Assembly (NCBI GenBank): GCA_937868015.1
Contig: CALMLW010000288.1
Span: 1-40,950, forward strand
Direction of reading: 5' to 3'
Source: an uncultured Synergistaceae bacterium
GTDB taxonomy: Bacteria > Synergistota > Synergistia > Synergistales > Aminiphilaceae
Length of the DNA stretch: 40,950 nt
Shown: one piece after another, positions 1,542-40,738 of the stretch
How positions within the stretch are numbered: the first letter of the stretch is position 1
Layout of the letters: each line of letters starts with the position of its first letter
Made by a program: the position numbers and the translations under genes
The notes under the pieces: model-generated
The model's database searches: none
The model's input: only the letters and a program-made list of their open reading frames with translations
Told to the model about the DNA's origin: nothing

Positions 1542-1577
1542 ATGCCAAAAGTTCTTAGGAGCTCCGGTTACCCATGA
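1542..1577 (+). CDS. 11-codon upstream ORF coupled to response regulator
   Basis: An ATG at 1542 follows a strong AGGAGG (1531-1536) with five-base spacing. It encodes the peptide MPKVLRSSGYP. Its TGA (1575-1577) overlaps the ATG (1574-1576) of the response regulator in an ATGA arrangement typical of translational coupling. It could be a leader peptide, a translation enhancer, or the relic of a longer N-terminus after a frameshift. No homology can be claimed for so short a peptide. Confidence 0.5.
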   Translation: MPKVLRSSGYP

Positions 1578-2407
1578 TCTCCCCCGACGCCACCGTGGGC
1601 CTTGCCATCAAGGACCCCAAGGTGCGCATGGCCCTGGAAGGGCTCCTGCGCTCCCTGGGGTTGGCGTGCACGACCTGGGATGATCTGGGGGATGTGGTCA
1701 TGGGCGTGGATCACCTGGACGCCCCTCTGGAGGTCCTTTTTTTAGGCTGGGGGCAGACCCAGGAGGGAGAGGCCTCGCAGATCCAGGCGATCCGGCTCCA
1801 CGCAAGGGGTTCTAGTACCCAGTTCTTTGCCTTGTCGCCGGAGTGGAGCGACATCCGCGCCCGGATGCGCGCCCGGGTGGCGGGGTGCGACGATCTGCTG
1901 GCCCTTCCCCCGGACCCCAATCAAATCCGTCGAGCCCTGGGCTTTCCCGTGGAAGAAGTTTCCGCCCCGAGCCCTGCTCCCGCCCCCGTACCGGAAAAAA
2001 CGACGGTCTCTGAAGATACCCCCTTTCCTCCGGACTTTCGGGTCCTCGTGGTGGACGACGCCGCCGTGGTGCGGGTAGGACTCAGTCGTCTGTTGTCCAA
2101 GATGGGGTGTGTGGTGGTGGAGGCGGAAAATGGCCAGGACGCCCTAAGAAAGCTTCCTTCGGCCAACCCGCACGTGATCATCACCGACCTTCTCATGCCC
2201 TACATGGATGGCTTTGGATTCATGCAAAACCTTCGGGAAAAGACCCAGTGGGAGCACGTTCCCGTCATCGTGGTATCCGGGTATGGAGACAAGCCGCGCC
2301 TCATCCAGGCCCTGCGCCACGGGGCCGTCGATTTTATCGTCAAACCGTTCAAGCCCGAGGTCATCAGGCAAAAACTGCTTAACATGCTGCATCAAAAAAA
2401 AGACTGA
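1574..2407 (+). CDS. Response regulator, degenerate receiver plus receiver
   Basis: A 277-residue protein. Its C-terminal ~120 residues are a canonical receiver domain: VLVVDDAAVV (acidic pocket), IITDLLMPYMDG (phospho-acceptor Asp), VIVVSGYG (Ser at the switch position) and FIVKPF (conserved Lys). The N-terminal ~125 residues have a similar alternating pattern (VGLAIKDPKVRMALEGLL at the start) but no acceptor Asp, suggesting a pseudo-receiver; this is inference. A Pro/Ala-rich linker joins them. No DNA-binding or enzymatic output domain is present, so it probably works by protein contact. The start is supported by AGGAGC upstream and by the coupled upstream ORF. No histidine kinase is adjacent. 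Confidence 0.85.
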   Translation: MISPDATVGLAIKDPKVRMALEGLLRSLGLACTTWDDLGDVVMGVDHLDAPLEVLFLGWGQTQEGEASQIQAIRLHARGSSTQFFALSPEWSDIRARMRARVAGCDDLLALPPDPNQIRRALGFPVEEVSAPSPAPAPVPEKTTVSEDTPFPPDFRVLVVDDAAVVRVGLSRLLSKMGCVVVEAENGQDALRKLPSANPHVIITDLLMPYMDGFGFMQNLREKTQWEHVPVIVVSGYGDKPRLIQALRHGAVDFIVKPFKPEVIRQKLLNMLHQKKD

Positions 2408-4490: not shown

Positions 4491-4662
4491 AGGTGGCACG
4501 GGCTTTGTTCCGGGATCACTCGCCGGAGTTTGTCCCTGCCTAGGAGCCCTTCCAGCTCCCTGGGGCATCCGCCGAAGGTTCGATACTCCCCAGACCTCGT
4601 CCACCGCCTCTTCTGTCCCGTCTTTTCGGGCGGGATCGAAGGACTCTGGCGGTTCTGGCGCT
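4491..4662 (-). ncRNA. glmS self-cleaving ribozyme-riboswitch
   Basis: On the minus strand the leader has the conserved glmS ribozyme core in order. The cleavage-site segment A|GCGCCAGAACC has the scissile bond between 4662 and 4661. A P1 stem (CCGCC/GGCGG) follows, then GACGAGG with GGGGAGTATCG, then TTCGGCGGATGCCCC, matching the core sequence known from Bacillus and Thermoanaerobacter. Downstream are a GGAGC/GCTCC hairpin (4543-4559) and nested ACTC/GAGT, GGGA/TCCC and GGCA/TGCC stems that fit P3-P4. In known members glucosamine-6-phosphate is the cofactor for cleavage, and the cleaved message is degraded, giving feedback on GlmS. Confidence 0.92.
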
Positions 4663-29718: not shown

Positions 29719-30330
29719 TTAGGTTCTTATTATAATCTCTCCCCAGAGGGCCCATCCGGAGCCCCGTAGCTCAAAGAAGGCTTCGGGATCTCCGTCTTCT
29801 CGGCGCCACAGTAGGCAATCCCCCGGGGACAGAACAAAGGGCTCCCCTTCGAGAGAAGGTCCCCGCCCCCCCACCTCCCCCTGAGCGGCAAAGAGGATCC
29901 CCACGCTCTTTTTGCTTCGCAGAGTCCCTTCCTCGTCGAGGGAAACAAAGCGTAGCATCGCCTCACCTCGGGCCCGGTCCACCATCAAGTTGAAATCCCT
30001 ACAAGGAGATCCCAAGAGGATCCCTTCTGTGGGGACATCGCCGGGAAAGGATCCCACCCTCCCCCGAGGAGAAAGGCGCTCGGGCTCTTTTCCTTCCACC
30101 CGGAGCTCCAAATCCCCCCCGTCGAGGATCGCCAGCAGGCGGTCGTAGCCGGGAAAAATAGAGAAGGGGCCCGACGAGGCCACCGGGGCCGTACTAACGC
30201 GCCAGAGAATCCGCGAAGGTCCCTCCCATGACCCCCCCGGGGGATCCAGGGCGATCTCTTCCGTCACTCCCCCGCCGTTTTTCCAAGGCATTTTTCGGTA
30301 GTCTTCCGGATGGAGCTTCAACCAACGCAA
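29719..30330 (-). CDS. HutD/Ves family protein
   Basis: A 203-residue cupin-like HutD/Ves protein. The family N-terminus is clear: RKMPWKNGGGVTEEIALDP, followed by ILWRVSTAPVASSGPFSIFPGYDRLLAIL, the most conserved stretch. HutD proteins are linked to histidine use or cold response, but no biochemical activity is established and no hut gene is adjacent. The start is a TTG with AGGAGG six bases upstream; the long in-frame extension above it lies antisense-like within queA and is rejected. It begins 86 bases after queA. Confidence 0.85.
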   Translation of the reverse strand: MRWLKLHPEDYRKMPWKNGGGVTEEIALDPPGGSWEGPSRILWRVSTAPVASSGPFSIFPGYDRLLAILDGGDLELRVEGKEPERLSPRGRVGSFPGDVPTEGILLGSPCRDFNLMVDRARGEAMLRFVSLDEEGTLRSKKSVGILFAAQGEVGGRGPSLEGEPFVLSPGDCLLWRREDGDPEAFFELRGSGWALWGEIIIRT

Positions 30331-30416
30331 TTTTCTCCTCCTCCTCGGGTTATCTCTGGGCGTTTTATCAAAGAGATTCGTTTCGTTTGGAGAAAAAAGG
30401 GGTATGGGCCTCGATC

Positions 30417-31547
30417 CTAGGCGATAAACATGGCATCTCCGAAGGAAAAAAACCGGTACCGATCCTCCACGGCCTTCCGATAGGCCCCCATCACTCGATC
30501 GTATCCCGCGAAGGCGGAGACCAGCATGAGAAGGGTGCTCCGGGGGAGGTGAAAGTTGGTCACCAGGGCGTCCACCGCCCGAAATCGAAATCCCGGGGTG
30601 ATGAAAAGCCCCGTGTCCGCCGTCCCCGGCCGCAGGGTGCCATCGTCCGAGGCAAAGGTCTCCAGCGTCCTCACCACCGTGGTGCCCACCGCCACCACCC
30701 GCCCTCCCCGCGCCCGGGCGCGGGCCACGGCATCGGCGGTCCCCTCCGGCAGAAAGCAGCGTTCTTCGTGCATGACGTGGCGGCGGACATCGTCGCTTTC
30801 CACGGGGCGAAAGGTCCCCAACCCCACGTGAAGGGTGACGAAGGAGATCTCCACACCCCTTTCTTCCAGCCTCTCCAAGAGCCCTTCGGTGAAATGAAGC
30901 CCCGCTGTGGGGGCGGCGGCGGATCCCTCCTGCCGGGCGTACACGGTCTGGTATCGCCCCGGAGGGGCCTCCGTGGAACGGATGTACGGGGGAAGGGGGA
31001 CCCGGCCCTCCGCCGCCAGGACCTCTCGCACCGTCCCCGAGGTCAATTCGAAGCGCACCTCCCGCAGCCCTTCGCCCCGGCGCTCTCCCACCACGCCCCT
31101 TCCTCCTGGGATAATCACCTCCGCCCCAGGATTCAGGCGCCGCCCGGGACGCACCAAGGCCTCCCACAGGGTCTCTTCGGCGTCCAGGGGGCGTAGCAGG
31201 AGCAACTCCACCCGGGCCCCCGAGGGCTTGGCGCCCAGGAGCCGGGCGTGCCACACTCGGGTGTCGTTAAGGACCAGAAGGTCCCCGGGGCACAGCAAGG
31301 TGGGGAGGTCGGAAAAACGTCGGTGACCCAGCTCTCCTCCCTCCCGGGGGACCACCAGGAGTCGGGACGCATCCCGGGGCTCGGCGGGGTTCTGGGCGAT
31401 CAGCTCTTCCGGCAGGTCGTAGTCGTAGGACGCCGTGGCAAAGAGCTCCGCGTCACCGTCTGTCGCCGGAAGAGTTTCTCCCCGCCCCCGCCCTCTCTGG
31501 GCTTTAATAAGCGCTTCGAAGCTTGGTGCCTGGATAGTAGTGCCCAA
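30417..31547 (-). CDS. queA: tRNA preQ1(34) S-adenosylmethionine ribosyltransferase-isomerase
   Basis: QueA transfers and isomerises the ribosyl moiety of SAM onto preQ1 in tRNA to make epoxyqueuosine. Family segments are YDYDLPEELIAQNPAEPRD, LLVLNDTRV, GSAAAPTAGLHFT, TLHVGLGTFRPV and VAVGTTVVRTLE. The domain begins at about 31430, but no ATG, GTG or TTG occurs in frame from there up to 31547. The TTG at 31547 has GGAG seven bases upstream and adds about 30 residues not typical of QueA. It overlaps spoIID by 44 bases. A non-standard start (for example ATT at 31505) is the alternative. No tgt gene is in the window. Confidence 0.93.
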   Translation of the reverse strand: MGTTIQAPSFEALIKAQRGRGRGETLPATDGDAELFATASYDYDLPEELIAQNPAEPRDASRLLVVPREGGELGHRRFSDLPTLLCPGDLLVLNDTRVWHARLLGAKPSGARVELLLLRPLDAEETLWEALVRPGRRLNPGAEVIIPGGRGVVGERRGEGLREVRFELTSGTVREVLAAEGRVPLPPYIRSTEAPPGRYQTVYARQEGSAAAPTAGLHFTEGLLERLEERGVEISFVTLHVGLGTFRPVESDDVRRHVMHEERCFLPEGTADAVARARARGGRVVAVGTTVVRTLETFASDDGTLRPGTADTGLFITPGFRFRAVDALVTNFHLPRSTLLMLVSAFAGYDRVMGAYRKAVEDRYRFFSFGDAMFIA

Positions 31548-32892
31548 GGATTTTCTCCGCTTTCCATCCGCCGTCGGCCAGGGCCTTGGCTCCCCACTGG
31601 GACATGCCCACTCCGTGACCCCACCCCCGGCCTCGGAAGACAAAGCCCTTCCCTGGGGCCCTCCGGTCAGGAGCCTTGGAGGGAAGGGGGGGAGTTTTGG
31701 CGCCCCTCCCTCCCCGGGCCAGGGCCTCTGCCATATGCTGGGCCCGCGTCTCGGGATGCATGAGCATGTCCATGAGCTCCGCCGTGGTGAAGGCTCCCTG
31801 GCGCGTCATCGCAATGAGCAGATCCCCCTCTTCCACGCTCTCGGAGAAGTAGGAGGCCTCTTCTCCTTCGCCGGAAGGGGTTTCTTCCGGCATGGGGGCC
31901 CCAGAACTCTCGGTGGTGCCCGCAGTCAGCTCAAAGACCGTACTTCGCAGGACGGAGGCTCCCACGGCCATGCGAAACTTGTGGGACGACACTACGGCTT
32001 TTCCCCCCGTCCCGCAGATCTCCAGGCGTACCGCCCGGCCGAAGGGGTCCTTTTGCGCCACGGTCATTCCCGTTACCGTCCCCACGCGCACGTCGATCCT
32101 CCCCAGGGCCTCCTCCACCTGGGCCGGGGAAAGAACCAGTTGCCAGCTAGAATAGGGCGACGTGTAGGCCACGGGTTCGGCCTGGGCCTTGAGATAGGGC
32201 ACGCTCCCCCCCCAAACGTCTCCCACATTCGCCGTGGCCCCTCCGCTGTCCGAATGATAAGGAGTGGCGGCAAGCTCTTTTCCCACGGCAAGCACCATGC
32301 CTTGAGTGGCCTTTACGGCCTTGTCCGTATGGGGGTCCTCCGCATTGATCCCCCGATAAACCTGGCAATGGGTGGTGGCACAGAGGTCAAAGCCCTGGCT
32401 TCGATGACGCCCCAACCCCTTCATGGCGAAGGTTCGGGCCACGATGGCCTGGGCCCGGAGAGATTCCGGAGGCCAGGCGGGGTTTGTCTCCATCTTGAGC
32501 ACCCCCCGGAGGTAATCCTCCATCCCCAATACGTTGACCACATTACACCCTTTGGCGGCGGGGACTAGTTTCAAAACTCCCCGATAGGGGTGCTTATCCC
32601 AGATGATGGGGGCCGGGCCTTGGGCGGTCACGGGAAGGGTAAGGGAGCCCTTGGGGGTCTCCAGGCGACTTCCGGAGCACGTGAAGGTCGCCGATTTTCC
32701 CACGGAAACTTTTTTCCCCTTGGAGTCCTTAAGCACGAAGGGTTTTGTCGAGGATAAAACTCCCTGGGAAATCCCCACCCCCACTCCCACGGCGATGGGT
32801 TTTTCCGCCGCCTCCGAGGACACCCCCTCTCCAAAGAGGACTAAGATCATCCCTAATCCCAGGATAAGGCCTTTTTGCCAGCTATTTTTCAC
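31504..32892 (-). CDS. SpoIID/LytB-domain lytic transglycosylase
   Basis: A 462-residue exported protein with a signal peptide (hydrophobic 8-22, cleavage near SEA). The SpoIID domain shows VLGMEDYLRGVLKME, including the Glu equivalent to the catalytic acid, LRAQAIVARTFAM, TPYHSDSGG and the C-terminal GRGWGHGVGMSQWGAKALA. SpoIID cuts glycan strands stripped of stem peptides; outside spore-formers such proteins act in cell-wall remodelling. About 90 residues of acidic then basic low-similarity sequence are inserted before the C-terminal motif. The start is GTG with AAGGAT upstream. It lies between DUF2905 and queA. Confidence 0.9.
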   Translation of the reverse strand: MKNSWQKGLILGLGMILVLFGEGVSSEAAEKPIAVGVGVGISQGVLSSTKPFVLKDSKGKKVSVGKSATFTCSGSRLETPKGSLTLPVTAQGPAPIIWDKHPYRGVLKLVPAAKGCNVVNVLGMEDYLRGVLKMETNPAWPPESLRAQAIVARTFAMKGLGRHRSQGFDLCATTHCQVYRGINAEDPHTDKAVKATQGMVLAVGKELAATPYHSDSGGATANVGDVWGGSVPYLKAQAEPVAYTSPYSSWQLVLSPAQVEEALGRIDVRVGTVTGMTVAQKDPFGRAVRLEICGTGGKAVVSSHKFRMAVGASVLRSTVFELTAGTTESSGAPMPEETPSGEGEEASYFSESVEEGDLLIAMTRQGAFTTAELMDMLMHPETRAQHMAEALARGGRGAKTPPLPSKAPDRRAPGKGFVFRGRGWGHGVGMSQWGAKALADGGWKAEKILGHYYPGTKLRSAY

Positions 32893-40619: not shown

Positions 40620-40738
40620 TTTCCGGCAACGACCTACTCTCCCACGGGTACCCCCCGCAGTACCATCGGCGCTGGAGGGCTTAACTGCCGGGTTCGGCAT
40701 GGAACCGGGTGTGTCCCCTCCGCTATGATCACCGAAAA
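40620..40738 (-). rRNA. rrf: 5S ribosomal RNA
   Basis: The minus strand gives a complete ~119-base 5S RNA: the 5' strand TTTTCGGTGATCATAGCG, the conserved ACACCCGGTTCCATGCCGAAC loop region split around 40690-40712, CAGCGCCGATGGTACTGCGG in the middle, and GGGAGAGTAGGTCGTTGCC near the 3' end. The ten terminal bases of each end pair to form helix I, which fixes the boundaries within a base or two. Confidence 0.95.

Follow-up and report, generated by a model that had tools for sequence, protein, structure and literature searches.

A genuine glmS ribozyme (RF00234) very probably occupies the glmS leader in the DNA analysed here, a 40,950-nucleotide stretch from an uncultured Synergistaceae bacterium (hereafter, the window), where, by homology, it would cleave itself in response to glucosamine-6-phosphate (GlcN6P), the cut message then being degraded by RNase J. 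The identification is supported by the covariance score, the conserved core, pseudoknot covariation and the gene context. It is an ordinary representative of a class already known, and the ribozyme is common in this phylum.

Detection of the ribozyme in the glmS leader

The Rfam covariance search of the window gave two matches, a 5S rRNA and RF00234. The latter lies on the minus strand at 4673-4485 and scores 70.3 bits (E 2.6e-14), against a gathering cut-off of 37 bits, and it covers the full length of the model (positions 1-167 of 167). The genome holds no second copy of the glmS ribozyme. An independent covariance model, built on an alignment of 30 relatives from which the window was left out, also recovers the element (96.7 bits, E 9e-27). 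The original prediction had called a glmS ribozyme and proposed the Rfam covariance model as its check; the score, well above the threshold, the intact core and the covariation of the P3.1 pseudoknot bear out that call.

The motifs on which the original prediction relied are all found on the minus strand where it had placed them: GCGCCAGAAC at the cleavage site (A(-1) at 4662 and G1 at 4661), GACGAGG at 4601-4595, TATCG at 4585-4581 and TTCGGCGGATG at 4576-4566. The conserved cleavage site and core are thus complete, with A-1 G1, CGCC, GACGAGG, UCGA and UCGGCGGAUG all present. The 3' end of the ribozyme is 25 nt before the glmS ATG (4459), and a Shine-Dalgarno-like GGAG is located at 4472-4469; this is a 5' leader position, immediately upstream of glmS as had been claimed. 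The interval first proposed, 4491-4662, was right in its location and too short in its extent, since the Rfam match is longer and an end at 4491 cuts the 3' strand of P3.1.

The assembly is fragmented (354 contigs, 84% complete, 3.6% contamination), which raises the question of whether the match could be due to chance or to faulty assembly. As far as the entire element is concerned, this is refuted by the E-value of the Rfam match, by a gene order that is the same as in relatives, and by the GlmS tree, where the protein nests with its own family (G017), and the probability of such an explanation is negligible.

Secondary structure, pseudoknots and conservation

The helices of the ribozyme can be placed on the minus strand of the window. 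P2 (4593-4560) is formed by CUGGGG (4593-4588) and CCCCAG (4565-4560), following the Rfam alignment and with covariation in relatives, and encloses the core strands of P2.1 and P2.2. The pair assignments of these two pseudoknots were taken from the published core map, in which P2.2 comprises the pairs C2-G56 to C5-G53 (PMC7125110). In the window, P2.1 pairs the CGA of GACGAGG (4599-4597) with UCG (4583-4581), with all bases kept, and P2.2 pairs CGCC (4660-4657) with GGCG (4573-4570), where four of four pairs are complementary; the bulged A6 of the P2.2 region is at 4656. The P2.1 and P2.2 columns are invariant in relatives, so that covariation is uninformative for them, and it is the presence and complementarity of the strands in the window that count. 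The predicted self-cleavage site falls between A(-1) at 4662 and G1 at 4661, both of which are conserved among the 63 relatives; by homology, the cut had been correctly positioned in the original prediction.

P3 (4559-4543) is seen both in the Rfam match and by direct reading, with GGAGC (4559-4555) pairing with GCUCC (4547-4543) around a loop at 4554-4548. Part of this loop, GAAGG (4552-4548), is complementary to CCUUC in the 3' tail (4493-4489), forming the P3.1 pseudoknot. Nested covariance models, the Rfam search included, cannot score P3.1. This pairing was nevertheless picked unprompted by RNAalifold from the 30 relatives aligned without the window, where it has changes on both sides at six of six pairs. 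The P4 domain (4540-4495), placed by the Rfam match and by conservation, contains the internal loop IL4 (ACAAA/ACAAAG), P4.1 and a GUGA (GNRA) L4 tetraloop at 4519-4516; in the same 30 relatives, both-sided changes are found at 8 of 8 pairs of P4 and 7 of 7 pairs of P4.1. Docking of a GNRA L4 on a G-C pair in P1, together with the IL4 purines, has been described (PMC11602151). The tetraloop, its receptor pair in P1 (C4652-G4604) and the IL4 purines are all present in the window, and the docking itself is predicted. The stems first described as nested and P3/P4-like therefore exist, although that description omitted P1, P2, P4.1 and the pseudoknots P2.1, P2.2 and P3.1.

With the pseudoknots included, 89.1% of cells are paired in the 30 relatives, compared with 72.0% after shuffling and 38-56% in slid registers, and the covariation score of the whole structure is 0.514, compared with 0.196 and 0.117-0.192, respectively; the slid control is flattering because part of the structure came from the very alignment being scored, while the window stood outside that alignment. 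Fifty-one columns are conserved in 57 or more of the 63 members, and the window differs at two of them, a J3/4 adenine and one position of P4, the latter probably a knock-on shift of the alignment. Folded in full, the RNA reaches a minimum energy only modestly better than that of shuffled sequences (z -1.8), a scoring that leaves the pseudoknots outside.

Local peculiarities of the P1 arm and J3/4

As had been remarked, the peripheral stems have a high GC content and depart from the Bacillus form, yet this is ordinary; the real peculiarities are an extended P1 arm and a shortened J3/4 linker. Folding places P1 at 4653-4603, and the usual short hairpin is replaced by a base stem (A4653-C4648 with G4608-U4603), an internal loop and an inner hairpin (4635-4616). 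In isolation this arm folds to -22.4 kcal/mol (z -3.0 against shuffles) in a shifted register, and the canonical register, at -21.2 kcal/mol, is 1.2 kcal/mol away, which is within the error of nearest-neighbour folding. In the family relative G017, P1 is likewise extended and holds an inner hairpin, while members of genus g14 (G039, G042 and G043) have a P1 insertion that differs from that of the window. Direct reading shows an A4654.G4602 mismatch at the base of P1. The J3/4 linker consists of 2 nt (UA, 4542-4541), shorter than in any of the other 62 aligned members, and lacks the near-invariant adenine before P4, although adenines at this place are a supporting rather than a class-defining trait. 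A gap of 2 nt in J3/4 could, on its own, be an assembly error.

Among the 63 Synergistota matches, just one has a lower Rfam score (70.2) than that of the window, which fits the extended P1, the A-G mismatch and the short J3/4. These peculiarities leave slight doubt over full activity. A decayed homologue, which would fold partially and cleave slowly or not at all owing to damage in J3/4 and at the P1 base, could be read from the unique J3/4 truncation, the mismatch and the low score. Such decay is very unlikely, given that the bases of the active site, P2.1, P2.2, the L4 receptor and IL4 are all kept, that P3.1 is intact, that the A-G mismatch is shared by the relative G023, and that catalysis by the Thermoanaerobacter tengcongensis core is little affected by mispairs at the base of P1 (PMC7125110). 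It is also improbable, if slightly less so, that the extended P1 and the 2-nt J3/4 represent an adapted periphery, where an altered packing of P3 and P4 would change the cleavage rate or the ligand dependence; if true, the window would hold a functional sub-variant of the glmS ribozyme.

Gene neighbourhood and host

The ribozyme sits within a run of five genes on the minus strand. Downstream is glmS (4459-2627; Pfam SIS and GATase_6), the product of which begins with MCGIVGY and is 59-68% identical to its closest relatives, all of them Synergistota, and about 50% identical to GlmS of other phyla; the assignment to a Synergistota-like host thus stands. Upstream are a galU-like nucleotidyltransferase gene (5662-4790; PF00483), glmM (7054-5684; PGM_PMM domains), ybbR/cdaR (8305-7091; PF07949) and cdaA (9131-8289; PF02457 DAC and CdaA_N), and the Pfam domains confirm both the glmM and the cdaA that had been noted alongside. 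Profile searches of the genome found LpxC (251 bits) and Omp85 (137 bits), in line with the diderm envelope that had been proposed. An RNase J gene is also encoded (TIGR00649, 584.5 bits, over the cut-off; G000:C30:4583-6214).

A consensus scan for promoters and terminators found no promoter-like or terminator-like site in the gap between galU and glmS, and this spacer folds no better than shuffled sequences. Together with the five genes on one strand, this raises the possibility of an added layer of regulation, one that leaves the identity of the ribozyme as it is: a cut in a five-gene transcript would split the cdaA-ybbR-glmM-galU mRNA from glmS and alter the stability of both halves. This is conceivable but rather unlikely. 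Consensus scans carry little weight as evidence, and the ribozyme-glmS pair of Acetomicrobium does not lie downstream of galU, which indicates that the pair works apart from the operon.

Elsewhere in the window, a protein with a C-terminal receiver domain (1574-2404, plus strand) has no Pfam match at 1e-5 in its N-terminal half, and a 511-aa protein (29722-31254, minus strand) has a HutD domain in its C-terminal third only, the remainder being without a Pfam match. A SpoIID-domain protein is encoded near ruvB (31507-32892, minus strand), in a diderm phylum, and the 5S rRNA gene (40621-40736, minus strand; 105 bits) lies at the contig end.

Proposed mechanism of GlmS control

The sequence, structure, conservation and gene context are matters of observation, as is the RNase J gene; the ligand, the cleavage, the decay and the regulatory effect in this host are inferred by homology. 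In Bacillus, cleavage of the glmS ribozyme followed by RNase J1 decay is a known mechanism (PMC7125110), and with RNase J encoded in the host, GlcN6P-triggered self-cleavage and RNase J decay form the best mechanism. The RNA would fold into the double-pseudoknot core of P2, P2.1 and P2.2, stabilised by P3/P3.1 and by the docking of P4 on P1. At high levels of GlcN6P, the product of GlmS, this compound would bind as the catalytic cofactor, and the RNA would undergo self-cleavage between A4662 and G4661. RNase J would destroy the downstream fragment, which would have a 5'-hydroxyl end, and GlmS would be lowered. That GlmS is controlled by feedback from its product is the natural inference.

The find puts a textbook RNA feedback switch into a phylum of lipopolysaccharide-type diderms, in which both peptidoglycan and, through LpxC, lipid A draw on GlcN6P. 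What is understood of the ribozyme class stays the same.

Distribution and evolution in Synergistota

Matches to RF00234, all of them above the threshold, occur in 63 of 188 Synergistota genomes, spread over 26 of 63 genera. GlmS is encoded in 164 of the 188 genomes, and thus most genomes without the ribozyme still have glmS. The order ybbR-glmM-galU-ribozyme-glmS is conserved in most ribozyme-bearing Synergistota; in Acetomicrobium, galU is not adjacent to the ribozyme-glmS pair. The ribozyme is also carried by Negativicutes (Megasphaera, Veillonella and Anaerospora) and, among the control genomes, by Deinobacterium. Negativicutes and Deinococcota have a diderm or atypical envelope. The rarity in diderms and Synergistota that the original prediction implied is not supported by these counts, and diderm hosts of the glmS ribozyme are not new. 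A literature search of papers other than the main glmS-ribozyme survey found none naming the ribozyme with Synergistetes, and an earlier listing is possible.

In GlmS trees, the ribozyme-bearing Synergistota genes group together with one well-supported ribozyme-less clade, which reads as one loss of the ribozyme. The native-type genes of this clade (L174-L198 except L186, L207-L209 and L211) also lack galU in the 600 bases that precede them, as though glmS had parted from its leader and operon. A second ribozyme-less set (L200-L205, L210, L212 and L213, as opposed to L144-L173) sits among Firmicutes GlmS and reads as gene replacement: in many Synergistaceae, genus g16 among them, a Firmicutes-like glmS without the ribozyme apparently replaced the native ribozyme-bearing gene. 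Some Firmicutes-like GlmS proteins may be paralogues; one genome (G156) encodes GlmS twice. When 40 ribozyme-less Synergistota loci were searched without filters, the scores were at chance level and no ribozyme remnant emerged, and a hidden ribozyme before glmS was rejected there, the best match (11.2 bits) lying inside coding sequence. Recent transfer of glmS and its ribozyme from Firmicutes into the lineage of the window was likewise rejected, because its GlmS nests inside the Synergistota clade.

The deep genome G005 has the ribozyme and G002 does not. In the latter, which belongs to a family outside the order, galU and the glmS directly after it (L186) are separated by about 12 nt. The presence and absence of the ribozyme across Synergistota provide a natural setting in which to compare glmS genes that carry the switch with those that lack it.

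Comparison with known glmS ribozymes

The ribozymes of Bacillus subtilis, B. anthracis and T. tengcongensis share with that of the window the cleavage site, the core double pseudoknot, P3.1, IL4, the GNRA L4 and its P1 receptor, as well as the position before glmS and the glmM/ybbR/cdaA context. The window differs from them in the extra internal loop and hairpin of P1, a J3/4 of 2 nt, GC-rich stems and the galU-like gene between glmM and the ribozyme. With the 62 further Synergistota ribozymes it has the location and core in common, and mostly the neighbours, whereas its J3/4 is shorter than in all of them. The ribozymes of Negativicutes and Deinobacterium likewise occur outside the classical monoderm Gram-positives, but their GlmS lineage differs from that of the window, and the Synergistota model gives those of Negativicutes lower scores (55-70 bits).
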